From Watersipora subatra (taxonomy: Eukaryota; Bryozoa; Gymnolaemata; Cheilostomatida; Watersiporidae), in contig NC_088714.1 of NCBI RefSeq assembly GCF_963576615.1, forward strand, positions 35,691,143 to 35,755,142: DNA of 64,000 nt, written 5' to 3'. Numbering within the stretch: the stretch's first letter is position 1; each line of letters begins with the position of its first letter. The position numbers were made by a program, and so were the translations under genes. Of this stretch, positions 7,001-33,099 are shown one piece after another. Under the pieces are notes generated by a model. That model did no database searches. It saw only the letters and a program-made list of their open reading frames with translations, and was not told the origin of the DNA.

Positions 7001-10000
7001 CCTATTCTGTTCTGTGAACTAAAACCTATTTGTTTCCTGTTTATTATGGCCTGAAGTCTATATGTATTTATCTGTTTGTCATCATCTGTATCGCTATAAC
7101 CTCCCACTTTCCCGTTATTTACTTACAACATTTGTTTTCTCATGTAAAATATCTTATGTAAGTTTGGTAGAAAAAAAGGCATCACTGTACACATTGGTAC
7201 ATCATTTTTAGTTATGAGTGCCATTGCAAAGATGGCTTCTCCGGAGACTTTTGTCAAACAGACCACTGCGATCTCAGTCCCTGTATCTACGGAACGTGTG
7301 TTCCTTTGCCTTCTGGCTCTCGGTGTGAATGCCTTGTCTGGTCTTCGGGAACTCGCTGCGAATTTGATCCCTGCAACCCCAACCCATGTGTAAGGGGTTC
7401 ATGTCACCGTCTAAGAGGAGGCAACTCCACATGCGCTTGTCCAGTGGGTAAGCATAACTTTATAAGTTAATCAGCATTGAACAGATTATAGCTATAGTGA
7501 AGCTTTTTTTCAAAAGCTAGATAGATGCTTGTTTCCCTTTTTAGTAACTTTTATAACAGTTTATTGATTAGGTCATGTCACAAACACCCATTTCATTGCC
7601 AAGTATATAATATAAATCAGGAGTTGCCTTCCATTAGCAACCAACATTACGAAAAGAAAAGGCGACTCCCTGCAACCCTGACCCCATGTGTTAGGGTTGC
7701 ATATTCATAGTATGCTGAACTTGGCTGAATGACCATTTAAAGTTTTAAACTAATATTTTAAAAATTTATTAGCATTCGATAAGCTGGTTGCAACTCTCTT
7801 TACTATCTCAACAAGCAGGACTTACAGACGAGATTTACAGACTTACAGACGAGATTTACAGACTTACAGATGAGATTTACAGACTTACAGACGAGATTTA
7901 CAGACTTACAGACGAGATTTACAGACTTACAGACAAGATTTACAAACTTACAGACGAGATTTACAGACTTACAGACGAGATTTACAGACTTACAGACGAG
8001 ATTTACAGACTAAGGTAACTTTCAAAAATGTTGTAAATTTTTTAACCAGGTTATACCGGAACCCTGTGTGAGGTGAACATAGATGATTGCAAAAATCACT
8101 GCCAGAATGGTGCTAACTGCACAGACCTGGTAGCTGACTATACATGTAGCTGTGCTTTCGGGTGGAAAGGAAGGAACTGCGAGACAAGCTACTGCTCCTC
8201 CAACCCATGTAAAAATGGAGCCAGCTGTTCTCAGGCTAATACTCCTCTAGGCTATCAGTGTCTATGTCTTTCTGGCTACCATGGACACAACTGCGAACTC
8301 AATTCATGCTATCCTAATCCATGTGCTCACGGGAGTTGCGAGTAAGTGCACTTAACTACGCTGTAGGTACTACAACTACACTGTCGACTCACTTATAATC
8401 TAGACGCAAACAATGGTATGAAAGATTGAAGTTGTTTCATGTTGGTCAATATACACATAGCTTAAACACTTGTCTGCCTGAAAAATAGATATAAGGCATA
8501 TCTTTGTATGAGCTTATATCTATGTGTGGAGACAACTTTCCGTAACAACCTATTCGCTTTTATTGACTTTTCTACCAACATGGAGCGCAGTAGAAAAGGC
8601 GTGAGTCAGTGAGGGATTGTTTTGATCAGATTAAATGGGATGCCACGGCTTTTAAAGAAGCGCCCTACCATGACAGAAATTTTTTTTTAATTATAGTGTT
8701 GAGCTCTATACGCAATAGTTCATTAAAAATGTTATCTCAATAACAATGTCTTAATCCTTAATCTTAATCCTTGGGCTAAAATAAAATCTCACTTAAATGT
8801 AAGTTGGTCTTTAAGTTCGTATGTAAGAAAACAACTTGGTATATGTGTAAAAGTCGGAACTTGTAGAAAGTGACTAACCGAGCATAGGTTTCGGTTATTT
8901 CGCAGGAAAGGCAGAGGTATTATTCAGTATAGCATGATATACATGTAATGTTATATTACATTGTACTATATTCTGCTCAACAGTTGACATACAGTGTTCC
9001 ATTATTTTATAAGAAAACTGTAGCATAGCATGAAACGTTTTTCTTTCATGAACTTCTTTGTACAATATACATGTATACTGTGATATGATGTAAGATACAG
9101 TGACCATAACATAATAACACATTTGTGAAACATATGGTATTAGAAATATCATGCAGAGCAATAAATTTAAATACCGTAAAACCTCTAATTGAGTGTCACC
9201 TCTATATGAACGCCACCTCCAATTGATCGCCACCCTGAGAGAAGGGTTGGGTTAAAAAATAGACCGCCACTCTCCAATTAAACGCCACCTCCATTTGACC
9301 GCCACGTTGACATTATTTGATCTTTATGAGCTCACAATATTAACTGATCAGGAGAAAAGTGTCCACAAAATCATATTAATAATAAATCGTTTCTATCAAT
9401 AACAATTAATGACCTTGTTGTCCAATTCCAAAGCTTTTTATCTTTTTAATTGAAACTTAGAAAGCAACACCATAGAAATAATCAATAATGGTCTCAGGCT
9501 AGTGGTAGTTCTCTGTTTGATGCGGTCTTTCTACTTCGAAGTAGCCTACATATAAAAATGCCAACAATGGTAGATTAACTTTCAAAGCAGCCCTATAGAA
9601 ATAATTACTGTCTCAGGCTAATAGTAGCTCCTTGTTTACGGGGTCCTAATACTTCGAAGGACATGAATATAGAAACTAGTTTGAAAGCTTTGGACCAAGG
9701 GTTACGTTAGCGCGCAAACATTTACGCGTTGCATTGGTGCTAAATTCAGCGCTCTGTTTAAAGTTTTGCTCCGTTAAAAAGATTGTTTGGACGCTAATAT
9801 TGAATAGTTCAGCAGTGCAGAAGATGAGTTGAAACTAAAAGATATTGTGGAAGGTGGACAACTAGATGATGTTTGTTCCAAACGATCGAAATATTTTTGT
9901 TTTAAAAACTTAATTTTTATTTTTTTAATAATGTAATGAATTTGCTAAGCTAAGCTATTTTTAATGGCCATTTGCATCAAGCTATTTTGGGATTAGCATA

Positions 10001-13000
10001 GTAATACGCAAGCCAGCTTTGTGAAAAGCCAATGGACTATCACATAGCTCCAGATATAAGGAGCCATAAGCCAGTGTTCTATAGGAGGGGTAAGAATATG
10101 CAACAAGAGAAGATACCCTAGTGAGGAAGAACAAGAGCACAGAGCAAGTGTTACAGACTACGAATGGCAGAACTAAGGACTGAGAATTACGTTCTTAATC
10201 TTCATTAAAAACAGCGTGGTAACATCAACCTACCTTTATGCAGCTTTGTGTATACATACATATCTTAAACATTCTTACATTTACAAATGTGGCCTAACTG
10301 TTTGAGTATTTATTAGTTGTAGACTCATTTCAGCATTACCCTTGATTGTATTGAATTATATCTAATTGTTCCGTCTTTTCATGCGTATAGAACTTGTGTA
10401 ATAAAGAACCATACTCATTCACCAGTCACCTTGCTTGCCACAACTACAGTTGTGCATGAGGGCTATTACTCATTTGGTATAAGACAATTTGTATGCGGAA
10501 GCCACTTGCAAGTGGCTAGTCAGCACTGACATCCACGGCAATAATATAAGTATGGTTTGTTTATGTCAGTTGCTCATGAATATATATTGGTATCATTTGA
10601 TAGATTATTGTTGTATAACTTATAAATATGCAGATTTATAGCATGTTATTTAATAGCATCCTTGCGGCTATCTTAACACGGCTTACAATGAATCGATGCT
10701 CATAACTCCACTTCTATTGCACATAAAAAGCTAGTTTTAGCTGCAAACTGTAGCAAATATATCGGTGAGTGCAATGAGCTTTTATTCAACAATGTCAAAT
10801 ATAGATATAAAATAAATTGTCTTCAAATTTAGAATGAGACTAAATTAGATAAATGCAACAAATTGCAAAGAAGGACACAGGCTATAATATTATCGCTGGT
10901 GAATTGCAAGCAATAGACATCAACTGGTAGAGATATTTCTCAGTTTCTCGATGCACATTTATTAAGATATCTTTGCCAAGTTAGAGGTAATTTAGATGTA
11001 TTGCATTCAAAACGTTTAATATCGGTCCACCGGCAAAAGAGGGCAAAATATAGGCGACATCCGCCTGGCCTGTAATAGGGCTAATTTTATCTTTGGAAAA
11101 TTCTGACGAGCCATTTGAAAATAGACCGCCAGCGTCTATTTGAGCGCTGGCTCCAATTGACCCTAGAGGAAAGGTGGAAAAATAGAGTGACATGGCATTC
11201 AATTAGAGGTTTTACGGTAGAATCATACCATATAGTTTCATAGTGTATATATTATACTATGAATAATGTACAATGCAATGCAGACAAATACCATTTTCAT
11301 TACTTCTCTGTAAAAGTATCATCTTTACTCACCAGGAAGCTTCCAGATGGAAAGTTCCGGTGTAACTGCCAGCCCGGTTATACAAATACCCTTTGTGACA
11401 GAGACATTAATGACTGCGACTCCATGCCCTGTCATAATAATGGCACCTGTACTGACATGCCAAATGATTATGACTGCCGATGTCAACCAGGGTGAGCCAC
11501 CTATTCACTTGTAATGCACCACCTGGCTCAGGTTAAGGATTTCCATAGTGCATATTCCGGTCAAAAACTGTCTGGCGCAGACTTTTTGGGCTTTTTGTCT
11601 GGCTTTTGGCTTTTCTGGAACTTTTGGTGACGGACTTTTTAGCGCTGCTACTTTTACGCCGAAGAAACTATCTATGTTTATATACAGTATATAAATAACA
11701 TAATGATAATAACAAGAAAATGCAAAAAAACATTATTTTATTCATGAAATTTCACATATACTACCTTTTTTGTATGATAACAAATGAGCTAAAATTTATC
11801 AATTAAATTTAATTCAAAGTTATGCGCTAACCCTTGGAAGGATTCTAAAGGTTGCCTTACATATTGTACTGCAATCGGAAGCTATTTGCCTTATTCTCTC
11901 CTCAGCGAGTAAACATTTCTTTATTTGGTGCTGCGGAAGCGTCTAGCTAGTGGCGGCTCATAAGCCGCATCTCTTGTTCTTTGCTCGCACTGGATTCCTT
12001 TGATAAATTGCCTGATGATTAGATGATGCATAAATAGTTCAAAATACAATGCAAATTCGCCTGTGAGTTACCTCTGCATGATCATTCGTTTTATTTTTTT
12101 AATTTCAAACTACTGATGGCATGAACTACATCTGTCTGAATTTAACCGCGACGAAAAATAGATAGACTCTGAACTTGTAGCCCGCATCAAAAAGTTTGCG
12201 CAAGAAACCGTGACCCGAAAAAGTCCTGAAAGTCTGAAAATTCAGTGTTCGACATAAGTTATCGATCCATTAGTTAGCCACTGAGCCACTCTTCGGGCTC
12301 CTACTGAGCTACTCATCATGATAAACTGATATTGCAGATACTCAGGGAAGATTTGCAATGAAAGTGTATGTGACAGCTCTCCATGTATGAACGGTGGCTT
12401 GTGCTCAACTAGTGGCTCAGGAGGATTTATCTGCACCTGTCTTGACGGCTTTAGTGGCCACTTGTGTGACGTAGATGCCTGCCAACCTAGCCTGTGCCTC
12501 AACAATGGTAGCTGCATTAGAGAACCTTCTGGTGCCTTCTCTTGTCTATGTAAAGCAGGTAATATACTGGCTTTCAACTGTGCACTAACGTTCACCGCAA
12601 TAATCTCAATGCTTTGCATAAAGATAGTGTCTCTTACCAATCCTAACCTATATTTCTCAAAGTTTGTAGTCTGTCTGTCTGTCCTTTGGTAAGTCTAGCT
12701 ATAGCTATTAAAATTTTGGAATTAGAATATCACATTATGCTGGAATTTAACTCACAAATATTGCGGCCGGTTTTGCAATCCGGTGCACTAACCACTAGAG
12801 CACTAACCACTAGAGCACTAACCACTAGAGCACTAACCACTAAAGTACTAACCACTAGAGCACTAACCACTAGAGCACTAACCACTAGAGCACTAACCAC
12901 TAGAGCACTAACCACTAGAGCACTAACCACTAGAGCACTAACCACTAAAGTACTAACCACTAGAGCACTAACCACTAGAGCACTAACCACTAGAGCACTA

Positions 13001-16000
13001 ACCACTAAAGTACTAACCACTAGAGCACTAACCACTAGAGCACTAACCACTAGAGCACTAACCACTACAGTACTAACCACTAAAGCACTAACCACTAGAG
13101 CACTAACCATTAGAGCACTAACCACTAGAGCACTAACCACTAGAGCACTAACCACTAGAGCACTAACCACTAGAGCACTAACCACTAGAGCACTAACCAC
13201 TAGAGCACTAACCACTAGAGCACTAACCACTAGAGCACTTACCACTAGAGCACTAACCACTAGAGCAAGTAAGCTTTTGCAATTACACTCATTGTTGCTC
13301 GATATGTATACATCTTTTTTTGTTTTCACACCCAAATGACGTATTAATTGAAACTCTATGAACTCTTTTAGCTTTATGAAACTCGATGCCTTTTTGTCGT
13401 CGTTGTACTAGGGCTAATTTGTTTTCAGCAAAAACGATATCAACAATAGATTCTCCCAAAATTAAAATTTGGCAATTGTTGTACTAACTACAGACGCTCT
13501 CCAACTTACGAACGAGTTATGCTCTGAACGATCGTTCGTAAGGTGAATTTGTTCGTAAGTTGCTTCAGTGCTATATTTCGTATTATGTATTATGTTTAAG
13601 GCCTATATAAGTATATTGAAAGTTTATATAAGTATGTTTAAGGCTTGTATAAGTAACCTGTATTGGTTTGTACTGAAAAACATTTAATAAAATGGAGAGA
13701 ATACTGTGGTGGACGCCAGGCCATGACAATGCATTTCTTATTTTTTGTATGTGTTGTCCTTTTTATTATATCGTTGTTTTAATCGTTATGCTATCACTTA
13801 TCGTTGTTGTCTTATTCTATTGTATGTGTTGTCCTTTTATTATATCGTTGTTTCACTGGTTATGCTATCACTTATCGTCACTTAAATTGTTGTCATACCA
13901 ACGCACTAGCGGTCCTATTGATTCACCTTGTTAGCCGGTGTTCTTATCGCTTGCCGGAACGGTTGATATTATTGTATATAAAGGAGCGCGCTCACTTGGT
14001 TGAGCAGAGCAGATAGCTGTACGCTCCTCGGCTAGTGAAATTTCTTTCACTAATAAAAAGCTGAATGAAACTACACGCACTCTCTTCTCTTTATTTATTA
14101 GCCTAGATTGTGCCAAGTAAAAGCAGGTAAAGTCCTTTACAATACGTACAGTAAAAATAAAAAAAGTTCTTTGCGCACTGAAGATACGTTCACGTACTTA
14201 TGCGCTGTAACAAACTGGGCAGAGGAAGGCGGATGCTGGGTGGTGCTTCCGAGTAGTGCCTCTTTCTGCCGCTAACACGTCGGTAATACCGTAGCTAATA
14301 GCGTCGATATTAGCGGCAGACATACACGTAGACATGTTTGTATGTACCGTTGTTCGTAACTCAAATGTTCGTAAGTAGGGAAGGTTCTGTACAAACGAAA
14401 TAGCTATTTTTATTTGATTTTCTCAGTTTGTAGTAGTTGTATCATTACCAAATCATCTGTTTTGTAGTTTACATACTTGCTGTTTATTTCACATCTATAT
14501 TTATTTGCTCTCCTAATTTATTTCAGTTGCTTTGAAGACTTTTCCCCTAGCTACATTACGTTTCCTTAATTCTGATAAAAGCGTATTAATTTATAGGTAT
14601 TTCCATGCTCAATGGCGTGTTAATTTAAACTCTATTATGAATTCTATTAACTCTATAAAACGTGATGATTTTTTCGTTTTTGCCGTGCTATTTCTAAATT
14701 GTTTTCCGGAAAATGGTATCAAGAATAATTCTTCTCGAAATTAAAATTTGGTGATTATATCTCAGTTCATCGTCACCCGTTATGATAACAAAGGTTCATC
14801 GTCACCCGTTATGATAACAAAGGTTCATCGTCACCCGTTATGATAACAAAGGTTCATCGTCACCCGTTATGATAACAAAGGTTCATCGTCACCCGTTATG
14901 ATAACAAAGGTTCATCGTCACCCGTTATGACAACAAAGGTTCATCTTCACCCGTTATGATAACAAAGGTTCATCGTCACCCGTTATGATAACAAAGGTTC
15001 ATCGTCACCCGTTATGATAACAAAGGTTCATCGTCACCCGTTATGATAACAAAGGTTCATCGTCACCCGTTATGATAACAAAGGTTCATCGTCACCCGTT
15101 ATGACAACAAAGGTTCATCTTCACCCGTTATGATAACAAAGGTTCATCGTCACCCGTTATGATAACAAAGGTTCATCGTCACCCGTTATGATAACAACGG
15201 TTCATCGTCACCCGTTATGATAACAAAGGTTTGCAAACATAAGTGATAAAACGTTTAGTTAAAAGTTTACCAAAATTCGAAAACTTCTTTAAAGTAGTTC
15301 AGCGTTTCTGCATTTATTCAGTGTTTATCTGGTGTGTTGTATGCGTGCTGTATAAAGATTAATAATGTGTTGTTATACGGTTAGATATGTACAGTGAAGC
15401 GTTTATCTGGTGTGTTGTATGCGTGCTGTATAAAGATTAATAATGTGTTGTTATATGGTTAGATATGTACAGTGAAGCGTTTATCTGGTGTGTTGTATGC
15501 GTGCTGTATAAAGATTAATAATGTGTTGTTATACGGTTAGATATGTACAATAAAGAGTTTATCTGGTGTGTTGTATGCGTGCTGTATAAAGATTAATAAT
15601 GTGTTGTTATATGGTTAGATATGTACAATAAAGAGTTTATCTGGTGTGTTGTATGCGTGCTGTATAAAGATTAATAATGTGTTGTTATATGGTTAGATAT
15701 GTACAATAAAGCGTCTAACCGTGGCAGCAGAGAAATTGACAAGCCTTTACTGTAGTAAAAACTAGTACGTTGGCAGACGGGTGCTCCGTAATAGATCGTC
15801 ATGTGTAATAAATATGTTCACAATTATTCCGCTATACAGCAAGGTGTCTATGTGGTGCAATGTCGGTGCACGAAGTTGAATACATGCAATATATATTTAT
15901 ATTATATAATTCTTCAGTTCTATATGTGGTTTTGAACAGAAAATGGTCGCGGCTTTCAACTATAGCGAAAGAATCGGCATGTGTGGCCGTATCTTTATTA

Positions 16001-19000
16001 TAGTAAAGATTGGAGCATACACTATGACTTGACTATTTTTCCGGTTTAGATTTTGTTTTGTACATAATAATTTTTTTGTTATTAAAAATGATATTTACTA
16101 ATATTAATTATGTAGTTGCTTTGTTTCTATGCGCATGTACCTGAAATATTTACCATCAGGTTTACGGGCTTTCAAATGAATTAAATTAAATACAGCATAT
16201 TTTATCAGATTTTTTTCCAATGTTTCTGATTTTATACAGTAATTTAACTTAGTGTGCCAATGATTGGCTGTATAACCTTTGTAAGAACGTTTCAGAATAT
16301 TGATCGTTTATAGAGCTGCAAGAGTCATTCTATTGAAAGAACACAACAAAAGGATAAGTAGTTGTAGTCATCCTATTAGAGTGGTATCATACATTACTGT
16401 TTACTTACAGGGTACACAGGAAACAACTGCCAAGTCATCCTATTAGAGTGGTATCATACATTACTGTTTACTTACAGGGTTCACAGGAAACAACTGCCAA
16501 GTCATCCTATTAGAGTGGTATCATACATTACTGTTTACTTACAGGGTTCACAGGAAACAACTGCCAAGACATGCTATTAGAATGGTATCATACATTACTG
16601 TTTACTTACAGGGTACACAGGAAACAACTGCCAAGTCATCCTATTAGAATGGTATCGTACATTACTGTTTACTTACAGGGTTCACAGGAAACAACTGCCA
16701 AGTCATCCTATTAGAGTGGTATCATACATTACTGTTTACTTACAGGGTTCACAGGAAACAACTGCCAAGTCATCCTATTAGAGTGGTATCATACATTACT
16801 GTTTACTTACAGGGTTCACAGGAAACAACTGCCAAGTCATCCTATTAGAATGGTATCATACATTACTGTTTACTTACAGGGTACACAGGAAACAACTGCC
16901 AAGTCATCCTATTAGAATGGTATCGTACATTACTGTTTACTTACAGGGTACACATGAAACAACTGCCAAGTCATGCTATTAGAATGGTATCATACATTAC
17001 TGTTTACTTACAGGGTTCACAGGAAACAACTGCCAAGTCATCCTATTAGAATGGTATCGTACATTACTGTTTACTTGCATGGTACACAGGAAACAACTGC
17101 CAAGTCATCCTATTAGAATGGTATCGTACATTACTGTTTACTTGCATGGTACACAGGAAACAACTGCCAAGTCATCCTATTAGAGTGGTATCATACATTA
17201 CTGTTTACTTGCAGGGTACACAGGAAACAACTGCCAAGTCATCCTATTAGAATGGTATCATACATTACTGTTTACTTGCAGGGTTCACAGGAAACAACTG
17301 CCAAGTCATTCTATTAGAATGGTATCATACATTACTGTTTACTTGCAGGGTACACAGGAAACAACTGCCAAGTCATGCTATTAGAATGGTATCATACATT
17401 ACTGTTTACTTACAGGGTACACAGGAAACAATTGCCAAGTCATCCTATTAGAATGGTATCATACATTACTGTTTACTTACAGGGTACACAGGAAACAACT
17501 GCCAAGTCATCCTATTAGAATGGTATCATACATTACTGTTTACTTGCAGGGTACACAGGAAACAACTGCCAAGTCATCCTATTAGAGTGGTATCATACAT
17601 TACTGTTTACTTACAGGGTACACAGGAAACAACTGCCAAGTCATCCTATTAGAATGGTATCCTACATTACTGTTTACTTGCAGGGTTCACAGGAAACAAC
17701 TGCCAAGTCATCCTATTAGAGTGGTATCATACATTACTGTTTACTTACAGGGTACACAGGAAACAACTGCCAAGTCATCCTATTAGAATGGTATCATACA
17801 TTACTGTTTACTTGCAGGGTACACAGGAAACAACTGCCAAGTCATCCTATTAGAATGGTATCATACATTACTGTTTACTTGCAGGGTACACAGGAAACAA
17901 CTGCCAAGTCATCCTATTAGAGTGGTATCATACATTACTGTTTACTTACAGGGTACACAGGAAACAACTGCCAAGTCATCCTATTAGAATGGTATCATAC
18001 ATTACTGTTTACTTGCAGGGTTCACAGGAAACAACTGCCAAGTCATTCTATTAGAATGGTATCATACATTACTGTTTACTTGCAGGGTACACAGGAAACA
18101 ACTGCCAAGTCATGCTATTAGAATGGTATCATACATTACTGTTTACTTACAGGGTACACAGGAAACAATTGCCAAGTCATCCTATTAGAGTGGTATCATA
18201 CATTACTGTTTACTTACAGGGTACACAGGAAACAACTGCCAAGTCATCCTATTAGAATGGTATCATACATTACTGTTTACTTGCAGGGTACACAGGAAAC
18301 AACTGCCAAGTCATCCTATTAGAGTGGTATCATACATTACTGTTTACTTGCAGGGTACACAGGAAACAACTGCCAAGTCATCCTATTAGAATGGTATCAT
18401 ACATTACTGTTTACTTGCAGGGTACACAGGAAACAACTGCCAAGTCATCCTATTAGAATGGTATCATACATTACTGTTTACTTACAGGGTACACAGGAAA
18501 CAACTGCCAAGTCATCCTATTAGAGTGGTATCGTACATTACTGTTTACTTGCAGGGTACACAGGAAACAACTGCCAAGTCATCCTATTAGAGTGGTATCA
18601 TACATTACTGTTTACTTGCAGGGTACACAGGAAACAACTGCCAAGTCATCCTATTAGAGCGGTATCGTACATTACTGTTTACTTGCAGGGTACACAGGAA
18701 ACAACTGCCAAGTCATCCTATTAGAGTGGTATCGTACATTACTGTTTACTTGCAGGGTACACAGGAAACAATTGCCAACAAAGCTTCTGCACTAACTCTA
18801 CTTGTCTAAACTCAGGCATTTGTCAGGTTCACAAGAATGGCTATCGGTGTCTTTGTCTGCCAGGTTTTGGAGGGAATAATTGTGAAGTAAGTTTTTAAAA
18901 AATGAACATAATGATGGCGTGTTTTTATCTATTTTAGTGACTCTCTAAAGACTGCAATAAATACTTCTCTTTAACTCTATCTCCATTAATATTAGATTTT

Positions 19001-22000
19001 AAGTCAAGCCAATGAACTTACCTTTGCACACAACTGTGATCTTTGCAAAAGTTTTAGTTCTGTGAGCTACAAGTATAAATTACAATTCTTTGTCATTAAC
19101 AGAATTTTTTAGTTTGCCTGCATTCCTATAGACATGTATTTCTGGCTGCTGGCATTGTTATGAAGTCAAATTGAAATATCCAAGTACAGAATAATCTTTA
19201 AATGCTTATTCACTTGTTGTATTTTTCATTTTATAAATAAATGCTTTTATTTCATATAGATTCAACAAATTGTGTATGCTGATATTTATTATGCGTTTTT
19301 CCGAATCACCTCATTGTACTTGAATTTGTGCCAAAATATCATTTTGCCTTTCACCTACTCCTACATGTAAGCTAGCACATGACTGCTATACCCCCTTGTA
19401 AACTAGCACTTGACTGCTACACCACCTTGTAAGCTAGCACATGACTGCTATACCCCCTTGTGAGCTAGCACATGACTGCTATACTCCCTTGTAAGCTAGT
19501 ACATGACTGCTACAACCCCTTGTAAGCTAGCACATGACTGCTATACCTTCTTGTAAGCTAGCGCATGACTGCTATACCCTCTTGTAAGCTAGCACATGAC
19601 TGCTATACCCCCTTGTAAGCTAGCACATGACTTCTATACCCCCTTGTAAGCTAGCACTTGACTGTTATACCCCGTTGTAAGCTAGCACATGACTGTTATA
19701 CCTACATGCAAGCTGACACGCAACTGAAGCATGAAGCTCTACAAATATTTCGTGTAGTGGAACTCGGCTAGGATTTCTAGCCACCTAGCTACATGATTCG
19801 AGGGTTCCTTTTTCCTGCACAACCATTCAAAAAGCATGGTCTGTGTGAAGAAAGAACTGCCATCCATAAAGATAGGGCAGGAAATGCTTCAGGGGCTATA
19901 CCGCAGCCAACAGCTTTCTTCAGCTAACACAGTAGTTCCTTTCTGTGGGTGCCAAAATCTTGCTGAAGATTGCAGTAGTTCTATTAGTCTCATCCTGCAC
20001 TTGTGAGAGCACAGCTTTCTCTCCGCAGCTGCTGGCATCTGTGTTCAAGATATACGGCTGGCTAAGGTCAAGGTGAGCAAGCACAGGTGCCAAGGACAAA
20101 TGCTCTTTCAGTTCCTCAAAGGCTGTCCGCTCCTTCTTGCCCAAGGTCCGTTTCTCACCTTTTTTCTTTCAACCGGTGCAGAGGCTGTGCTGTGGTAGCG
20201 AAGCTCAGGATATACTGCTGGTAGTAACCTGCCACACCAAGGAAGCCTTGCAGCTCGCTGAGCCACCGAAGTAGTTAGCCATTCTTGGATCACCCACGTT
20301 TTCTTTGGGTCAGTAGATACACCAGCGCTAACCACATGGCTTAAGTAACGCACCTGTGACTGGAGTAGCTCACACTTGGAGAGTTACAGCTTTATTCTAG
20401 CTCCTTTCAGTCGAACTTCCTTTCAGTCTAACTTCCTTTGGTTGCTGGTACAGTTTATCCAGCCAGTGCAGGTGAGGATCAAAGTCAGGAGTGATGCTGA
20501 TGATCTTATCTAGGAAAAGCAAGAGCGACTTCCCATGCAAGCCCTGTAGTGCGCACTCCATTAGCCTTTAAAAGGTGGAGTAGGTGAGACCACAGGGCAG
20601 GATCTTCTTCTACAGGTTAGAGAGGGTAGCAAACGCTAACTGCTTCGGTGCATTGGTGCCCAAGGGTACTTGTCAGTAGCCACCGATCAGGTTCAGTGCA
20701 TCGAAGCTTTCGCCGATCCGAGAAAAGGGGTAAGTCGTTTCGCGTCAACTACCGACGACTGTCGTCACCGGCAGTTGGCAGTAAGTGCAGAAGTGCCGCT
20801 TGCCATTCTTCTCTTTGACCAACACCATCAGGAAACTCTAAGCACCTCCAGTCGGCTCAATGAGCCTCTTGCTCAGCAGGTCCTGAACTTAATACTTTAA
20901 CTCATGGAATCCGAGCATGAAGTTCCTCAGCGCCTCAGGAAGTTGAGCAGTGTCTCTTTTTCTGACCCTAGCCGATAGGGAAGCTGCTGACTTGGCCAGG
21001 TTCCCTCCTTCATTGAAATAGAATGCTCCACCTTGGAGGTTTGTCCCACACTTCCATAGCCGGGGCTAAACGTACTCTGGTAGGGTGTCAGCAATCGTGC
21101 CAGCCGCTTGGCCTGCCCCGGCTTTGTGCAGTTCCTTCAAGCTGCCGCAAACAGGTCTTCTAGGTAGGCTGGCACTCCAGGCTCAAGCATTTTTTCACCC
21201 GAAGGTACAACACTCAAGCCGAAGAGGGGTGGTTCATCATTCACCTGGTGGTCCTTCATTCCCGTGTACGTGTTAACCCTGACGCCGGTGTGGCAGTGTA
21301 GAAGTTGATTTGTAAGGTTTAGGCACTACATGACTACACTTGACTCGGTTTTGAGAATAACCTCAGAGGACAAAACTCATGGAGCAGGCTCCTGGATGGA
21401 TGGATCAATCTACCAGAGAGTCGTAAGGCATGTCAGACCGGCCATTAAGACAGGCTTCCGACAATGTATCGGCTAGAGTCCTTCTGGCTGATCCCCGAGT
21501 GCACTCCTGACAACACAGTCTGGTTTGGCTCAATTCAGTTCAGAGTATGTCACCATGTCCATACTGTCCTCTAGGCATCTGAGTTCTATGTAGTTCTTTC
21601 AGAGCCTTATAACAATTTTGGAGAGCTATGGACAGAGTCTCTTTCACCGGCATCTCAGCCAGAATATCCAAAAACCGTGTTCACATTAGTTTGGGATTAC
21701 TTTTTCTCCCTCCCTTCTCCATATACCCTTTCAACAAAGTGCTATAATGTACACATCAGCTGCCTTTACCTGTATGTCTATATGACCAATGTGAAAAAAC
21801 ACAACCCCATATTTGCACTAATTTTGTTCTAGCGGAACCTGTGCCAACCAAGCCCATGTGGAGCCTTTGGTACTTGCATAGGGCTAGAGAGAAACTATAG
21901 ATGCGATTGTATTGATGGATACACTGGAGAGAACTGCACTACAGGTTGGCGCTTGATCGTTGAACTAATATTTTGAAGTGTTCCTCCTATCTGTTCATTG

Positions 22001-25000: not shown

Positions 25001-28000
25001 TACACCACCCATTACATGTTCTGTCTGTTTAGAAAGCATCCACTATCATTAATGTGATCGATAACAAAAAATAATACACAGAGCAGCTGCTTGAAAATCT
25101 ATCATAAACAAAAAAATTATGTCAACTTGTAGGAATTGTTTCGCCTTAAACTTTGAATGGTATTTCTCCATTCTAATCCAAACAAGTTGTAAAACTTGTT
25201 ATCTTTATCAACATAATAAGTATTCTTTGTAGGAATGGTGGTACATGCAACCATCCAGTAAGTGGGAAACCATACTGTAATTGCCCAGCTGGATTCCAAG
25301 GAATAAGGTGTGATGTAAATACTTCCACACACGCCAGTCAAGTCTGTACCAATAATGGCACTTGTATGGACTCGATGAGTGGTTATAATTGCACTCGCAG
25401 ACCAGGATTTAATGGGTCAAACTGTGAGATTGACGGTTGCAGGTCAAACCCTTGTCATCACAATAGTGTTTGTATAGAGGATTCTGATGAATTCAGATGT
25501 TTATGCCCAACTGGCTACACGGGTCTGACTTGTGCTACTAATATTGATCCTTGTATTTCGAATCCATGCAAAAACTCAGGTACTTGCTTAGCTGGACTGC
25601 TTGACTTTTCTTGCCAATGCGCGACTGGTTATTCAGGGAAAACATGTGAAACTAATACTTGCTCGCTTTTGCCTTGTTTAAATGGAGGAAATTGTACGAT
25701 GGGTTATTCAAGTAAGAGATATATTTGTGACTGCCCTCCAGATTATACCGGAGCACGATGTGAGAATAGGATAGATGATTGCGAGTCCAGTCCTTGTTAT
25801 AACGCCGGAGTCTGTATCGATGGAATCAACTCATTTAGTTGTAAGTGTATAGATGGCTTTAGCGGAGCCTTATGTGATGTCGATCGCTGTTCTTCAAATC
25901 CTTGCACAAATGGATTTTGCAATATGACCAGTTCAGGGAACTATAAGTGCACATGCAACGCTGGCTATGAGGGTGAAAACTGTACGACCAACTCGGATGA
26001 TTGTGCATCGGCGCCGTGTCAAAATCAAGCTATCTGTAACGACAAGTTAGACGACTACTTTTGTCAATGTAAAGATGGGTTTGCAGGAAAAAACTGTGAG
26101 ATCGATGTTTGTGGCTTGCAAAAATGTCAACACAATGCAAAATGCCGTGGAAAGCCTCTAGGAAGATTTGAATGCCATTGTATAGCAGGTTTTACGGGAA
26201 GATTATGTGAAATAGACATTGATGACTGTAGCAGCCACAACTGTGAAAATGGGGCTATTTGTGTTGATCAAGTTGATGGCTACATGTGCAAGTGTTTGGC
26301 TGGATTTGGGGGAGAAAACTGCTCAAATGATTTTTGTACCATTAATAGATGTATGAACAATGGCACATGTGTTCCGCAAGTCAATGGCTCTTCATGTTTG
26401 TGCCCACCTGAATATTTTGGTGACAGATGTCAGACACTACGGAATCATTGCGATTCTCACCCGTGCGCTAACAATGCAACATGTATAAATAAGTTCACAG
26501 ACTTCGAGTGTATTTGCAGTAATGGCACCTCAGGTGAGACATGTCGCAAACATGTATGCAGCAGCGACACCTGTAAAAACAATGGCACATGTATAGTTAC
26601 AGAGCGTGGCTTTGTCTGTAGATGTTACCATGGTTACCAAGGTGTACAATGCGAAAAAAAAGCTGATGAATGCAAATCTTCACCTTGCCTAAATGGAGGT
26701 GAATGTATAAACACAAACAAGGGCTATGTTTGCAAATGCGCGGATGGGTACACTGGAGTGACCTGCGACACTGATCGTTGTCATGCACAGCTTTGTCAAA
26801 ATGGGGGTACATGCAGTCGCTTGCCTTTAGGAAGAATGGAGTGCTTATGTCCTTGGAATTTCACTGGAGAGTTTTGTGAGACGGAAGTTGACCACTGCCA
26901 AAGTAATCCATGCTTTAACAATGCCACTTGCTCTAATCTAGTGAATACCTACCAATGTGAATGTCCTGAAGGATTCGCTGGAACAACATGTGATCTGAAT
27001 TTATGCATGGGCAATCACTGCATGAACAATGGAACTTGTGTCGGACTGAAACACGGATATAAGTGCTTGTGCTTAGCAGGGTTTGTAGGTGAACTATGTC
27101 AAGTGGATTTAGATGAGTGCATGTCAAACCCATGCCAAAATGCAGGAACCTGTTGCGACAACGTCGGAGGTTTCACATGCTCATGTCAAGATGGCTACAC
27201 TGGAGAGCTGTGTCAAATCTCCAACAATAGCTGCATGTCATATCCTTGCCTGAATAATGCTTCTTGCGTTAACTCGCTTAACGGTTATGAATGCGAGTGT
27301 CTTTCAGGGTTTTTTGGAAAACATTGTGAGTTGGACTACTGTCATCCTAACCCGTGTTTTGCAGGCAAGTGTATCAAACAAGATGATGGCTTTGATTGTT
27401 CTTGTTCAGATGGATTCACCGGTAAAAATTGTAGCATACTTGTCAAGGGATGTCAGGAAAATCGCTGTTACAATGGTGCATTATGTGTTAATGAACGAGG
27501 TAAATATTCTTGTAAATGTCCAGATGGGTATGCAGGTGACTTATGCCAGATGTATGTATGTGACAACAATGGTCCTTGTGGTTCAAATGGACTCTGTGAA
27601 CCAAAAGCAAATGACAAACGGTATCAATGTAGATGTGATGTTGGATATTATGGCAACTTATGCGACCAGAATTACTGCCAGCCTGATCCCTGTGGCCATG
27701 GAATCTGCAAAGGTAGCGCTAATGGTTTCACTTGCATTTGCCATTACGGGTTTGACGGAATACGATGTGAAAAAGACATTAACGAATGTCAAACGATGCC
27801 TTGTTTAAACAATGCAACTTGTATTAACCTCTCAGGATCATATGCGTGTGACTGCCTTCCTGGTTTTGATGGTGACCACTGCCAAAAAGATCTCTGTGAG
27901 CCATCTCCCTGCGCTAACAACGGTTCGTGTGTTAGAGAAGTAGGAGGCTTCAATTGCACATGTCCGGTAGGATATTCTGGGGAAACATGTAACTCTTATG

Positions 28001-31000
28001 TCTGTGATAAGATGGTTTGCGTATATGGTGAATGCATTCTAGAAGGTGACAAGGCTGGTCAATGCGCTTGCTCAGCTGGCTATACTGGCAGGTTTTGTTA
28101 TTCCCTTATCAAGGAATGTCAATCCTCACCATGTAGAAATAATGGCACCTGCCAAAACCTTATTGGGGGTTATCAGTGCCTATGTCCAGCAGGATACTAT
28201 GGAAAAGATTGCGAATATGATTACTGTGATCCTAACCCGTGTGATAATGATGGGAGTTGCATTCAAGTTGCGAATGACTTCTTCTGCAATTGCAAAACGG
28301 ACTACGCAGGAAAAACATGTACTGAAGTCATTAAGGAATGCTTATCATCACCTTGTCTTAACCAAGGCAAGTGTGTTGAAGCTACTGGAGGATTTTATTG
28401 TCAATGTTTTCCTGGCTACGAAGGCGCTTTTTGTGAGGTTAACACTGATGAATGCTTTGATAGCCCTTGTCACAAAGGGTTTTGTACTGATCTCATCAAC
28501 GATTACAGTTGTGCTTGTCCACTTGGAACAGTAGGAAAAAATTGTTCCATTGATTTATGTGCTTCAAATCCATGTTCATATGGAGTATGCACTCCTTTAG
28601 ATGGAGGTTATCAGTGCTCTAGCGATTTGTGTGCAAGTGACCCATGTGACAATAGAGGTAAATGTTCCGTAAGCTCTAATGGCAACTACACATGTAATTG
28701 CTATGATGGCTTCACGGGTGACTCATGTTCGATGGACCTATGCCTACCAAATCCATGTTATAAAGGTACGTGTTTCGGTGTTGACCGTAACTATACATGT
28801 AAATGTGACCCCGGTTTTAGTGGTAGAAACTGTGATGTTGATCTATGCTCATTCTGTCAGCATGGTACATGTTTTACGACTTTTGATGGAGTTGATTGTC
28901 TGTGTCAGCCAGGTTGGAGCGGTCAAATGTGCAGTGTGAATATAGATGACTGTTTGGCAGATCCGTGTCAGAATTTTGCGGTGTGTACGGATCATGTAAA
29001 TGATTATTTTTGCACGTGTACAGATGGATACAGCGGAAAAGATTGTAGCTTGGATTTGTGTGTTGCTGCAAATTGCGGTAATGGAACCTGTAATCGTTCT
29101 CCTGGTAAAGCTAATTGCACTTGCAGTCCTGGATTCAGTGGTACCCAATGTCGAGATAATATTGATGAGTGTGCATCAAACCCTTGTATGAATGGACGTT
29201 GTTATGATAAAGTTGGAGGATTTGAATGCATTTGTTCAACTGGATTTTATGGTGAGCTTTGTGAACATGACTACTGCAATACATCTTCATGCGTTCAAGG
29301 ATCCTGCGTTCGAGTTGTTGATGGATACAGATGTGCATGCTTTAGCGGCTACACCGGAGCTAACTGTGACGAGAACTTTGATCGCTGTATTTCAGATCCT
29401 TGCTTGAATAATGCTACTTGTATTACACAAGTCAATGGCTACAGATGTCGTTGCGCGGTCGGATTTGGTGGTAGTTTATGCGATAAAGACTTTTGCAATC
29501 CCTCACTTTGTAAGTTTGGAGACTGCGTACCCTTGCTTGGGGGATATCGGTGTAATTGTTTAAATGGATATATGGGTTTGCATTGTGAAACTAACATCAA
29601 TGATTGCTCAGGAAACAGCTGCCTACATGGAGGAAGCTGTATAGATGGCACTAGTAATTTTACATGCCTCTGCCCGATTGGCTTTTCAGGTTCAAAGTGT
29701 GAAGTTGATGAATGCCAAACTAATCCATGTCAGAATGGTGTGTGTCAAAGAATTTCAGGTGGTAGTTTATGTATTTGTGAGCCAGGTTACACTGGTAAAC
29801 TATGTGAGACCAATTACGATGACTGTCTGTATAACCCGTGTCACAACAATGCTAGTTGCATAGATGAAATCAATGGCTTCAGATGTCAGTGCAAGCCAGG
29901 GTTTGTAGACAGACTATGTTCCTCTGATTTATGTAGTGCAAGCCCATGTATCAATGGTCGATGTGTTGGAACCGATGGAAGCTATGCTTGCATGTGTGAC
30001 TTTGGTTGGACAGGTGTTTGGTGTGAAGCAGCACTCAATAGTTGTGTATCAGATCCATGTATGAACAATGCTACTTGTTTGGACTATGCTGGAAATTTTC
30101 GCTGTAGCTGTTTGTCTGGATTTTCTGGATCTGATTGTTCTGTTGATCTTTGCAGTTTGCTTGACTGTGGCCTCAATGGAACATGCCATGTTAGACTTAA
30201 TGGAGTGTCATGCAGCTGCGATGCAGGATTTACTGGCAATAACTGTAGAACAAAAGTAGACCATTGCGCTAATACGGTTTGTCACAATGGTGGAATCTGT
30301 GTGAGCAACCTCACTGGCTTTGAATGTATCTGCCCAGATGGTAAACTCGGAAGGCTTTGTGAACAAGACCTATGTTTTCCTTCACCTTGCAAACATGGTC
30401 ATTGCCTACCTTTACCACAAAACTACTCTTGCGAATGTTTCGCTGGATATGAAGGAAGACATTGTACAGCTAAGAAAAATGACTGTGCTTCCTCTCCTTG
30501 CCAGGCTGGAGCATGTAATAATCTAGTCAATGATTTTGAATGTATTTGTCCACCAGGTAAAGCAGGCATTTTGTGTGAGACAGATTTGTGTTCACCTTCA
30601 AAATGCATTCGAGGTACATGCAAACCTGAAGTTGGGAATTTTAGCTGTCAGTGTCCACCCGGATATACGGGTCATTTGTGTGAAAAAGATATTGATGAAT
30701 GCGCTACAGGCTTTTGTTCTAAAAACTCACGATGTGTAGATGGCATAAATGACTACACATGTATATGTGATGATGGGTTTGTGGGCAAGTCATGCTCAGT
30801 TAATCTTTGTTCAGATGTTTTCAATCCTTGTGACCATGGGACATGTAGAGGAACCCCCAAAGGTCTTTTTTGTGACTGTGACAAGGGATATGAAGGAAAA
30901 ACATGTTATAGAAACATAAACGAGTGTATTTTCACCAACTGCTCTGGAAATGGGGTATGTATCGATTCCATAGGAACCTACTCATGCGCTTGCAATCCAG

Positions 31001-33099
31001 GTTTTGAGGGAAAAGATTGTGAGGTAGACTTGTGCAAGATAAGTGGCAATTGCAAAAATGGTAAATGCGTGTCCACTCGAGGAGCTTCGACTTGCCACTG
31101 TTTAGCAGGATTCACAGGAGTGGCTTGTGACATGGAAGTAGATGAGTGCTCAAATGATCCGTGCCAAAACAACGGCACATGCACAGATGAAGTAAATGCT
31201 TACAGTTGTCGATGCCTATCCGGATATTACGGTGATTCTTGTGAAAGTGATGTTTGTGTAGAAAGCCCATGTAAAAATGGAGTGTGTCAAAGATTAGGTA
31301 ATGGCAGCCGCATCTGCCAATGCGATCTGGGCTTTCAAGGTGAGAGCTGCAATATCAGCACTGATGGGTGCTTGTCAAGTCCGTGTCAAAATCGTGGAAC
31401 ATGCCTTGACACTTCAAACAGCCACTCCTGCATCTGTGTGCCTGGTTATAGTGGCTCTAATTGTGAGCATTCAGTTTGCAGCTCAGATCCTTGTATGCGA
31501 AGAGGAGTGTGTGAAATACAGCCAAATGGAAACTATCTCTGCAAATGTGCGGAGGGATTTGCAGGAACCAATTGCGAGGTAAGAATTGTTTTAAAAGAGC
31601 AAACATAAATGGCTATGAGGCTTTAAAATAATAAAAGTTAATACAAAGAATATTTAGTTGGATAAAAATAAACTAGTAATATGAGCCAGTTACCAACTGC
31701 AAATTATGCAACTAGAAACAGACCTCACAAATAGTTAGTCAGGTGATGACTTGGGCATTTCATCCATACAATATTTTTGTATTATAGTCTCAAGTATTAC
31801 AAACTCAAGTTTTATTCGTAGAAAACTTCAATTACATCCTCTTGCTACGTGATTAGTTATTGTAAATTATTGATGAAATTTCAGAGCGCAAATAGTAATA
31901 AAAGACACTGTCCGAGAGGTTCTCTGCTATCAACTTACGCTCATTTGACTCTATAATTAGTTGATGATGTCACCACCTGTATAGTAGATACTGCCTACAC
32001 TTACTCCACCCTATAATTAGTTGATGATGTCACCACTTGTATAGTAGATACTGCCTACACTTACTCCACCCTATAATTAGTTGATGATGTCACCACTTGT
32101 ATAGTAGATACTGCCTACACTTACTCCACCCTATAATTAGTTGATGATGTCACCACTTGTATAGTAGATACTGTCTACACTTACTTCACTCTATAATTAG
32201 TTGATGATGTCACCACTTGCATAGTAGATACTGTCTACACTCTCTTCACTCTATAATTAGTTGATGTCACCACTTGTATAGTAGATACTGCCTACACTTA
32301 CTCCACCCTATAATTAGTTGATGATGTCACCACTTGTATAGTAGATACTGCCTACACTTACTCCACCCTATAATTAGTTGATGATGTCACCACTTGTATA
32401 GTAGATACTGCCTACACTTACTCCACCCTATAATTAGTTGATGATGTCACCACTTGTATAGTAGATACTGTCTACACTCTCTTCACTCTATAATTAGTTG
32501 ATGTCACCACTTGTATAGTAGATACTGCCTACACTTACTCCACCCTATAATTAGTTGATGATGTCACCACTTGTATAGTAGATACTGTCTACACTCTCTT
32601 CACTCTATAATTAGTTGATGTCACCACTTGTATAGTAGATACTGTCTACACTTACTTCACTCTATATAATAGTAGATGATGTCATCACTTGTATAGTAGA
32701 TACTGCTTAGAGTTACTTTACATATTTGTATGGTAGATGCCATATCAGAAGGGCAGTGTTATAATATTTTTAGAACGTGATTTACCAGAAAGCTATTTAA
32801 AACTTGCATCATATTCCCTTATGATTAGACTCTTTTTTTTTAAATGTACAAAAGCTTCAGGATATATTGTAGTGGTTGTAAGTTGAATAGTGGATATAGG
32901 GACTTTTGTTCAAATGTCACATTTATTATGGTTATTATGCTATGTGTCCCTTATAATTTAAAACCATTCACTAATTTTTTAGTTTGTCACCAACCAATGC
33001 GCACAGCGTACGTGTCAAAATGGAGGGCTCTGTTTCGGCACTGAAGATGACGCTGTTTGTATCTGCCCAAAAGAATTCACCGGAAAACTCTGTGAACAG
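833..33099 (+). CDS. Giant EGF-repeat extracellular protein, multi-exon, 5' end outside window
   Basis: Sixteen exons join in frame: 833-1067, 2478-2629, 3128-3993, 5681-5874, 6452-6655, 7212-7447, 8050-8341, 11336-11491, 12338-12558, 18756-18886, 21833-21944, 22109-22338, 23818-23912, 24717-24884, 25233-31578, 32983-33099. All introns are GT-AG and all phases match, giving about 3,250 codons in the window. Apart from linkers the product is EGF modules only (six cysteines, CxC-x2-G-a-x-G-x2-C ends). Many carry the D-I/V-D/N-E/D-C start of calcium-binding EGFs. No LNR, ankyrin, laminin-G, EGF-CA/TM-kinase or transmembrane segment is seen, so Notch or Crumbs cannot be claimed. EGF arrays of this kind act outside the cell in adhesion, matrix or signalling; the specific role here is unknown. 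The first exon begins mid-codon, so the start codon and any signal peptide lie upstream. A last exon may lie at 36,034. Confidence 0.93.
1318..2290. repeat. 21-bp AT-rich minisatellite (about 46 units)
   Basis: The unit is close to ACATATAAATACACATGTAT(A). Blocks containing catacatgtatat recur at about 1,832, 2,071 and 2,225, showing higher-order duplication. Because the unit is seven codons long, open frames of up to 381 codons appear on both strands; they are artefacts. Confidence 0.95.
2478..2629 (+). CDS. EGF gene exon 2 (window numbering)
   Basis: Acceptor ttttag at 2472-2477, donor gtgaga at 2630. It completes the split Arg codon (AG|G) of the previous exon, encodes the final Cys of that EGF and one compact module, and ends in phase 1. 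Confidence 0.88.
2630..3127. other. Intron 2, no feature seen
   Basis: Apart from a few irregular copies of gttagcnnnngttagc near 2,785-2,825, I see no structured element in this intron. Confidence 0.4.
3128..3993 (+). CDS. EGF gene exon 3, about 7.5 EGF modules
   Basis: Acceptor tttgcag at 3121-3127, donor gtaaga at 3994; 866 bp. It encodes a run of seven to eight EGF modules from GGACSPSSG to GFTGNLCE. It is the second-longest coding block of the gene and, like the giant exon, has no internal introns. The open frame runs on past the donor to a stop near 4012. Confidence 0.92.
4018..4410. repeat. About 29-bp minisatellite in intron 3
   Basis: The unit is like TCTCTCTACTATATACAGTA plus gttgtcatg, about 13 imperfect copies. 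The internal ctgctatatacagtag varies between copies. Confidence 0.85.
5056..5285. repeat. 29-bp minisatellite in intron 3
   Basis: About eight copies of a unit starting TGACAGTTATCGCTTAGTGT. Copies alternate between cgcttagtgtc and cacttagtgtt, suggesting duplication of a two-unit block. Confidence 0.85.
5681..5874 (+). CDS. EGF gene exon 4
   Basis: Acceptor gtttttgcag at 5671-5680, donor gtacgc at 5875. It encodes MDMCGGCLHNGSC...GSHCE and most of a second EGF ending CLCPPG, in phase 2. Confidence 0.9.
5875..7211. other. Introns 4 and 5, no mobile element recognised
   Basis: Two introns (5875-6451 and 6656-7211) flank exon 5. Both are AT-rich and contain no tandem array or inverted-repeat element that I can see. 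Confidence 0.4.
6452..6655 (+). CDS. EGF gene exon 5
   Basis: Acceptor tatgtag ends at 6451, donor gtttgt at 6656. It finishes the previous EGF (GYSGAFC), codes one full module (CELTPCLNNGTC...GDRCE) and starts the next (LDPCSHAKCLNGGSC). Confidence 0.87.
7212..7447 (+). CDS. EGF gene exon 6
   Basis: Acceptor atttttag ends at 7211, donor gtaagc at 7448. AG|T makes the split Ser. It encodes the end of one EGF, the module DHCDLSPCIYGTC...GTRCE and the start of FDPCNPNPCVRGSC, in phase 1. Confidence 0.9.
7812..8012. repeat. 21-bp minisatellite in intron 6
   Basis: About nine copies of GAGATTTACAGACTTACAGA(C). The unit is seven codons long, giving a spurious 76-codon open frame. It ends about 35 bp upstream of the exon 7 acceptor. 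Confidence 0.92.
8050..8341 (+). CDS. EGF gene exon 7
   Basis: Acceptor aaccag ends at 8049, donor gtaagt at 8342. It encodes YTGTLCE, a calcium-binding-type module beginning VNIDDCKNHC, another full module and the first half of a fourth (CYPNPCAHGSCE). Confidence 0.9.
8342..9171. other. Intron 7, left part, nothing recognised
   Basis: AT-rich sequence between the exon 7 donor and the left end of the TA-flanked element. No exon, tandem array or RNA gene is seen. Confidence 0.4.
9172..11219. mobile_element. TA-flanked 2.05 kb DNA transposon remnant (mariner/pogo-like)
   Basis: The left end TACCGTAAAACCTCTAATTG is mirrored by the right end caattagaggttttacggta. Both start or end with TA, the target duplicated by Tc1/mariner/pogo elements. 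Sub-terminal blocks with 'cgccacctccaattga' occur inside both ends. Part of the interior is duplicated (tctcaggcta blocks at about 9,490 and 9,610). No transposase frame is left. It fills most of intron 7. Confidence 0.75.
11336..11491 (+). CDS. EGF gene exon 8
   Basis: Acceptor ctcaccag ends at 11335, donor gtgagc at 11492. GA|G joins exactly to exon 7. It encodes KLPDGKFRCNCQPGYTNTLCD and then the module DINDCDSMPCHNNGTC, ending CQPG. Confidence 0.88.
11492..12337. other. Intron 8, weak tRNA-like segment
   Basis: Region 11,550-11,640 is rich in ctttttgg/cttttggctttt runs. On the - strand, about 12,317-12,245 resembles a tRNA-derived A box (TAGCTCAGTAGG), but the B box is poor, so a SINE remnant is only a possibility. 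Confidence 0.3.
12338..12558 (+). CDS. EGF gene exon 9
   Basis: Acceptor atattgcag ends at 12337, donor gtaata at 12559. It encodes YSGKIC, one full EGF (ESVCDSSPCMNGGLC...) and most of the next (DACQPSLCLNNGSC...CKAG). It is followed by a 6.2 kb intron that is mostly tandem repeats. Confidence 0.88.
12784..13267. repeat. 15-bp minisatellite (about 32 units)
   Basis: The unit is ACTAACCACTAGAGC with occasional taaagt and tacagt variants. The unit is five codons long, so frames of over 200 codons stay open on both strands (repeated ALTTR or ALVVS). This is not a gene. Confidence 0.96.
13338..14752. repeat. Diverged direct repeat flanking the TACAGA element
   Basis: About 135 bp at 13,338-13,475 (ttaattgaaactctatgaac ... 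aaattaaaatttggcaatt) is clearly related to 14,613-14,752 (ttaatttaaactctattatg ... aaattaaaatttggtgat). The two copies flank the inserted element. Confidence 0.6.
13489..14391. mobile_element. TACAGA-ended 0.9 kb MITE-like element
   Basis: The left end TACAGACGCTCTCCAACTTA (then CGAACGAG) pairs with the right end, whose reverse complement starts TACAGAACCTTCCCTACTTA (then CGAACA). Further inside, both ends carry repeated 'gttcgtaa' motifs. The ends fit a mariner-type TA-target element. No transposase frame is seen. Confidence 0.65.
14764..15230. repeat. 29-bp minisatellite, 16 units, with a 6-unit higher-order period
   Basis: The unit is GGTTCATCGTCACCCGTTAT plus gataacaaa. Unit starts at 14,766 and 15,201 are exactly 15 periods apart. 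A double variant (gacaac plus catcttcac) recurs 174 bp apart, which is six units. Confidence 0.95.
15323..15712. repeat. 78-bp tandem repeat, 5 units
   Basis: Units start with GTTTATCTGGTGTGTTGTAT at 15,323, 15,401, 15,479, 15,557 and 15,635, exactly 78 bp apart. Confidence 0.95.
15713..16366. other. Unique spacer between two arrays in intron 9
   Basis: AT-rich, non-repetitive sequence. No exon, RNA gene or inverted repeat is visible. Confidence 0.4.
16367..18778 (+). repeat. 67-bp minisatellite containing a 3' splice site, 36 units
   Basis: Each unit runs actgtttacttacag | GGTACACAGGAAACAACTGC, then caagtcatcctattagagtg and gtatcatacatt. The GGTACACAGG of the first unit is at 16,411 and that of the last, functional one at 18,756: 2,345 bp, exactly 35 x 67, so there are no net indels. 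The AG|GGTACAC boundary of each unit equals the acceptor and exon start (Y-T-G-N-N-C) of EGF exon 10. A variant pair (tcattctatt, then aattgcc) recurs 737 bp (11 units) apart, showing block duplication. Confidence 0.97.
18756..18886 (+). CDS. EGF gene exon 10, its 5' end is the last unit of a 67-bp array
   Basis: Acceptor cttgcag ends at 18755, donor gtaagt at 18887. It encodes YTGNNCQQSFCTNSTCLNSG onward to GFGGNNCE. The acceptor and the first ~20 exon bases are identical or nearly so to the unit repeated 35 times upstream. The 36th unit is the only one followed by an open EGF reading frame, which is why this AG is chosen. Confidence 0.88.
18887..19361. other. Intron 10, left part, nothing recognised
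   Basis: AT-rich unique sequence before the 30-bp array. Confidence 0.4.
19362..19712. repeat. About 30-bp minisatellite in intron 10
   Basis: About eleven imperfect copies of CTTGTAAGCTAGCACATGAC plus tgctatacccc. Confidence 0.9.
19745..21300 (-). pseudogene. Decayed Ty3/gypsy-type pol fragment in intron 10
   Basis: On the - strand, broken frames encode reverse-transcriptase-like text. From high to low coordinates these are FDALNLIGGY-like sequence near 20,690, the connection region (RYLSHVVSAGVSTDPKK, 20,350-20,300) and the start of RNase H (LAHLDLSQPYILNTDASS, about 20,080-20,030). Frames change several times and stops interrupt, so no protein can be made. The first Asp expected in the RNase H 'ILDTDAS' block reads Asn. 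No LTRs are recognised around it. It lies antisense inside the EGF gene. Confidence 0.75.
21301..21832. other. Intron 10, right part
   Basis: Possibly more retroelement remnant up to about 21,700, since base composition stays GC-richer than the flanks. No readable protein block is found. Normal AT-rich intron follows to the exon 11 acceptor. Confidence 0.3.
21833..21944 (+). CDS. EGF gene exon 11
   Basis: Acceptor tgttctag ends at 21832. The donor gttggc at 21945 is a weak match to consensus. It encodes RNLCQPSPCGAFGTC...GYTGENCTT, one module, and ends in phase 1, which fits the next exon (G|AT = Asp). Confidence 0.8.
22109..22338 (+). CDS. EGF gene exon 12
   Basis: Acceptor gactacag ends at 22108, donor gtaagc at 22339. 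It encodes DLCDPKSYPCGNGGLC...GPQCQ and an unusual module INLCEQVVCIMNNTSPRHC... ending GDRCQ, in phase 0. Confidence 0.9.
22339..23465. other. Intron 12, left part
   Basis: AT-rich, with loose repeats of 'taggtatat...atcatgcatataggtcat' between about 22,940 and 23,120. No element ends are seen. Confidence 0.4.
23466..23745. repeat. 21-bp minisatellite in intron 12
   Basis: About thirteen imperfect copies of GCACAATGCATGATATGTAA(T), ending about 75 bp before exon 13. The unit is seven codons long, giving cysteine-rich spurious open frames on the - strand. Confidence 0.9.
23818..23912 (+). CDS. EGF gene exon 13
   Basis: Acceptor ctcttttag ends at 23817, donor gtaagt at 23913. It encodes most of one calcium-binding EGF: YDVNECKRSKPCVNGGTC, with the N-T-I-G-S-F-F-C segment typical of cbEGF. 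Confidence 0.9.
24140..24380. repeat. Irregular 'ataggtcatacagtatt' repeat in intron 13
   Basis: Several short copies of TATAGGTCATACAGTATTAT with variable spacing. It is related to the looser repeats at 22,940-23,120. Confidence 0.7.
24717..24884 (+). CDS. EGF gene exon 14
   Basis: Acceptor ggctgcag ends at 24716, donor gtatgt at 24885. It encodes YEGHLCD, the module DPCAESLCLNGGSC...GQHCG and the start of VCGQHNPCL, in phase 2. Confidence 0.88.
25233..31578 (+). CDS. EGF gene exon 15: 6.35 kb exon, about 57 EGF modules
   Basis: Acceptor ctttgtag ends at 25232, donor gtaaga at 31579. 2,115 codons read without a stop. Counting C-x-S-x-P-C starts gives about 57 EGF modules of about 38 residues. 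Modules of the D-I/V-N/D-E/D-C type alternate with shorter 'D-x-C-x-x-x-P-C' modules, so the underlying unit is often a pair (about 78 residues). Two modules are abnormal: one near 25,396 has Arg where the fifth Cys is expected, and one near 28,560-28,620 lacks its last two cysteines. Several smaller open frames on both strands inside this exon are out-of-frame shadows caused by the repeat composition. Confidence 0.97.
31579..31946. other. Intron 15, left part
   Basis: Unique AT-rich intron sequence. The giant-exon frame closes 30 bp past the donor. Confidence 0.4.
31947..32702. repeat. 60-bp minisatellite in intron 15 (about 13 units)
   Basis: The unit is CTATAATTAGTTGATGATGT, then caccacttgtatagtagata and ctgcctacacttactccacc. 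A 57-bp form lacking one 'gat' recurs together with the 'ctctcttcactc' variant, showing spread of a marked block. Confidence 0.95.
32983..33099 (+). CDS. EGF gene exon 16 (last certain exon)
   Basis: Acceptor aattttttag ends at 32982, donor gtaaga at 33100. It encodes one EGF, FVTNQCAQRTCQNGGLC... ending GKLCEQ, in phase 0. No further EGF module is visible downstream. Confidence 0.9.

Follow-up and report, generated by a model that had tools for sequence, protein, structure and literature searches.

A 67-bp minisatellite of 36 copies across the predicted acceptor of an EGF-coding exon in Watersipora subatra

An EGF-coding gene and the array in one of its introns

The DNA analyzed here is a stretch of 64,000 nucleotides of the bryozoan Watersipora subatra (contig NC_088714.1, positions 35,691,143 to 35,755,142 of the forward strand), referred to below as the window. 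A pattern search of the long open frame at 25177-31608 yielded 54 EGF domains. We built a profile from these, scanned the open frames of the window with it, and derived a gene model by a phase-consistent search across candidate splice sites. Splice scores were computed from a hand-set consensus and are rough. The predicted model comprises 16 exons between 833 and 33099 and is open across 3251 codons without a stop. One predicted exon of more than 6.3 kb (25233-31578) lies inside an open frame of 2143 codons, the frame in which the 54 EGF domains were found, and contig C10 carries a similar open frame of 2234 codons, i.e., a second giant EGF exon. A reverse transcriptase RNase H-like frame (19920-20168, minus strand; Pfam RT_RNaseH_2, E 3e-18) is located within the predicted intron 18887-21832. 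The window held no Rfam family, at the Rfam cut-offs, and no tRNA gene.

In the model, an exon on the plus strand at 12338-12558 ends in phase 1 before GTAATA and is followed by a predicted phase-1 intron of 6197 nt (12559-18755, plus strand), which holds the array described here and several other minisatellites. The next predicted exon is an EGF exon of 131 nt (18756-18886, plus strand; GYTGNNCQQSFC...), followed by GTAAGT at 18887. Across the 12558/18756 junction the predicted protein reads ...CLCKA-GYTGNNCQQSFC..., which completes one EGF domain, and 18756 is the best-scoring phase-compatible exon start; the placement of the boundary at this position is a result of the gene model. An earlier note on this DNA had called the exon EGF exon 10. 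An EGF exon is indeed predicted to start at 18756, but the number 10 is a count within the window only, because EGF-like segments on the plus strand, presumably of the same gene, can be followed as far as 19.3 kb beyond the window's upstream end.

Tandem Repeats Finder (TRF) placed a minisatellite at 16366-18778 on the plus strand, with a period of 67, 36.0 copies, 96% matches and 0% indels, in agreement with the 36 copies of 67 bp reported earlier; a repeat of this kind is beyond chance expectation. The array straddles the predicted 3' splice site of the EGF-coding exon. When the units were laid out in register, each was seen to consist of an intronic part of 45 bases, with AG at its end (AT in two units), and an exonic part of 22 bases. 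The proposal that the unit joins a 3' splice site to the start of an exon is therefore supported by the array layout together with the gene model, in which the boundary is predicted, although its exonic part had been put at about 20 bases. All 36 boundary motifs are spaced by exactly 67, and the first and last are 2345 bp apart, or 35 x 67, as claimed. The acceptor predicted to be productive lies in unit 36 (18711-18777, plus strand), with its AG at 18754-18755 and the exon beginning at 18756; this unit reads straight into the open EGF-coding frame. In the unit alignment, the acceptor AG reads AT in units 11 and 12 (17036-17169, plus strand), so that it is intact in 34 of 36 units. The 35 decoy acceptors that had been counted ahead of the real one are thus many, as stated, but number 33 with an intact AG.

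Among the 36 units, 10 positions vary and 17 distinct types occur, with the variants interspersed along the array. Block-wise, higher-order duplication of units was considered and rejected: the longest identical run, seen when the array is displaced by 11 units, measures 241 bases, and 17 of 300 shuffled unit orders match that. A degenerate unit copy in the left flank was rejected as well, because its alignment score of 13 was equalled or exceeded in 228 of 2000 shuffles and in 28 of 202 other stretches of 150 bp. A query of 257 bases (the last two units and the exon) gave 17 matches in the whole assembly, all at its own locus, and neither a second haplotype nor a close DNA copy of the query was found there. 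A dispersed repeat as the source of the unit was likewise dismissed: in a search that skips very common words, the unit had no match elsewhere in the genome, and it therefore appears to have arisen locally.

Decoy acceptors: frames, scores and partner donors

Under the gene model, joining the exon at 12338-12558 to any of the 35 upstream positions brings in a premature stop at a distance of 3 to 62 codons from the junction, usually 56. It had been proposed that most upstream sites would shift the frame or hit a stop; their non-productive nature is borne out by the model, and it extends to all 35. On our hand-set score, the unit acceptors reach 4.9-5.3, which equals the best of the 15 modelled acceptors (range -3.8 to 5.3). 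Intronic AGs that score at least 4.8 on the same scale make up 33 of 154 within the array, compared with 5 of 1120 elsewhere in the gene. These scores and the reading frames were read from the sequence, as were the array itself and its lack of donor-like sites: the best of the 164 GTs in the array scores no higher than -1.04 on a rough scale on which the 15 modelled internal donors range from 0.0 to 6.5. By their sequence, the decoys look like acceptors without partner donors.

Exon definition, an established principle, would favor the copy that lies 131 nt ahead of GTAAGT at 18887. Because the GTs of the array score far below the modelled donors, the donor at 18887 probably favors the last array copy in this way. 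The next two acceptors upstream, both decoys, would extend the exon to 198 and 265 nt, respectively, as opposed to 131 nt from 18756. As these exons are only that long, exon definition alone does not clearly exclude the nearest decoys, and the two could leak despite it. Furthermore, 33 of the 35 decoys keep their AG, with no sign of weeding out, and some of them may be used. RNA structure that might hide the decoys was not indicated: in the last two units, folding was no more stable than in shuffled controls (z = -0.34).

A separate array upstream in the gene (7819-8011; 21 bp x 9.2) contains many TTACAG-like acceptor motifs and ends 38 bases before a predicted acceptor (exon at 8050).

Arrays and splice sites in the gene and in the genome

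The genome is rich in minisatellites. The modelled gene contains 21 arrays that cover 7584 of its 32267 bases and 34% of its intron sequence, and arrays account for 16.7% of the window, compared with 10.8% of twenty 10-kb stretches taken at fixed coordinates from eleven contigs. One of the 30 modelled splice sites is spanned by an array. Circular shifts gave 4.25 spanning arrays on average, with one or none in 2.1% of the shifts, under a crude null in which arrays may land in exons; under an alternative null, the expected number of founder units straddling a boundary is 0.83. The single overlap of an array with a splice site in the modelled gene is chance expectation, no more.

Several further arrays were noticed in and near the window. 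That at 12785-13267 has a 15-bp unit in 32 copies (GCACTAACCACTAGA), which we take to resemble part of a tRNA D-arm beside an anticodon-arm-like stretch; neither ARAGORN nor Rfam found a tRNA in it. At 15323-15714 there are five copies of a 78-bp unit, and copies of one period (about 67-78 bases) are scattered across the genome: among the matches listed, 38 of 43 lie elsewhere, with the best 40 of 840 candidates scored. An array of 20 bp x 28 at 59582-60149 shows 99% matches, a GC-rich unit and long minus-strand open frames. Finally, about 13.9 kb before the start of the window lies an array of 8 bp x 18 (ACTCAGGT) that repeats a CAG-GT motif.

We searched the assembly (784 Mb, 239 contigs) for EGF domains and obtained at least 143 matches, with the best 150 of 981 candidates scored. 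In the 7 kb adjoining the second giant EGF exon on C10 (locus L035), a repeat of 33 bp x 2.3 on the reverse strand (1312-1386) crosses a predicted donor boundary in another EGF gene. Its unit consists of the last 13 exonic and the first 20 intronic bases, including GTGAGG, and read-through past the first donor would lead to a stop. A tblastn search of the same 7 kb for a counterpart of the exon at 18756-18886 showed general EGF similarity only.

We also surveyed 40 stretches around further EGF matches, which contained 55 open segments; these had candidate splice sites at 106 exon edges, and the best two candidates of each edge were tested. Three loci were flagged and one, L062, was upheld after inspection; at L045 the repeat sits within the intron, before the acceptor, and does not span the boundary, and at L046 it adjoins a doubtful exon scrap and was dropped. 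At L062 (385-468, plus strand), a 17-bp unit in 4.9 copies, counted as five, lies across the predicted donor boundary of an EGF exon; the first copy reads GGTGACAG|GTAAGAGCA, and the GT is kept in four of the five copies. These loci suggest that boundary-spanning minisatellites recur in this genome, at 3' and 5' boundaries alike. One of the 106 exon edges was spanned, compared with about 10% of nearby non-exon positions (1889 of 18738), which indicates that such arrays are rarer at splice sites than nearby. Arrays at splice sites thus look depleted, not favored, as expected if most boundary arrays are selected against.

A probable mirage-type minisatellite and rival explanations

Tandem repeats across an intron-exon boundary have been described in amphioxus as "mirage" minisatellites, in Adh3 and in the globin genes BflGb6 and BflGb9 (PMC3087553). 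In BflGb6, the repeat joins the 3' terminus of an intron to the 5' portion of exon 2, with 6 units in one haplotype and 3 in another, and unit lengths in Adh3 range from 10 to 72 bp (PMC3087553). The array at 16366-18778 is like these in that its tandem unit crosses an intron-exon boundary, here the predicted acceptor at 18756, and carries splice signals. Its unit is composed as in BflGb6, of an intron end followed by an exon start, here at a predicted boundary, and its length of 67 bp falls within the Adh3 range. As in the published description (PMC3087553), the splice signal is retained by many repeats but lost from some (AG in 34 of 36 units), and both 5' and 3' boundaries are affected in the genome, the former at the predicted donors of L035 and L062. 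It differs from BflGb6 in its 36 copies and in the gene concerned.

In human segmental duplications, internal tandem repeats located at exon-intron boundaries change gene structure; 27 intron modifications were counted, and the repeats can give novel introns or alternative splicing (PMC2812944). Our array resembles those repeats in its location at an exon-intron boundary; unlike them, its units have no donor-like site and no new intron is predicted. Repeats that create introns carry both donor and acceptor in their units, whereas no GT of the array exceeds -1.04 on our rough score. Zhuo et al. 2007 are said to have shown that human introns were born from tandem arrays, with repeats that carry splice signals feeding splicing change; the 67-bp array, unlike such introns, copies the boundary of an existing one. 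In open-licence literature, mostly titles and the beginnings of abstracts, we noticed no array of comparable size at an acceptor. The class is already known, and the array at 16366-18778 looks like a new and unusually large mirage-type case.

We consider it probable that the array is a mirage-type minisatellite that is tolerated rather than used. A short tandem duplication would by chance have straddled the intron-exon boundary of the EGF exon and would then have expanded inside the intron to 36 copies, perhaps through slippage or unequal exchange. The gene would still work, since only the last copy sits a normal exon length (131 nt) before a good donor and the rest of the exon. Since the decoys would be good acceptors but have no donor to pair with, exon definition would leave most of them in the intron, and occasional use of the nearest decoys would yield frameshifted RNA that is probably decayed. 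Under this explanation the array would be neutral.

It is unlikely that the array acts instead as a splicing rheostat, a reading close to the suggestion in the earlier note that length variation could tune the output of the gene. In such a device decoys would compete with the true acceptor by copy number, decay would remove the frameshifted products and the length of the array would determine how much protein results. The 33 intact decoys, which score as strongly as the true acceptor on the hand-set scale and are all non-productive in the model, speak for it, and the length of amphioxus mirages varies between haplotypes (PMC3087553). Against this, the array has no donor-like partner and array overlap with splice sites looks depleted, not favored. 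In addition, RT-PCR is reported to suggest that the amphioxus mirages do not disturb regular splicing; the authors allow for cryptic-site use and cite somatic instability at Adh3 (PMC3087553).

We give slightly less weight to an assembly artefact, in which the true copy number differs and is perhaps much smaller or larger. Long near-identical arrays misassemble easily, and for one amphioxus mirage the authors termed the draft version aberrantly assembled (PMC3087553). The 17 types among the 36 units and the interspersion of the variants argue against it, and a wrong count would still leave an array of the boundary-spanning kind. It is most improbable that this is an ordinary intronic repeat whose likeness to the exon is irrelevant since the exon starts elsewhere. 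The exon boundaries are predictions and the genome is full of intronic arrays, which such a reading would draw on, but among phase-compatible starts 18756 scores best, and an exon from there completes the EGF domain that opens in the exon ending at 12558.

If array length did set splicing output, individuals would differ in their output of a giant EGF-repeat protein. The mirage kind may extend beyond amphioxus. The array keeps the branch region, the pyrimidine tract and the first exon bases almost constant across competing acceptors, and it is a natural experiment on the way in which one acceptor is chosen by the splicing machinery among 34 near-identical ones.
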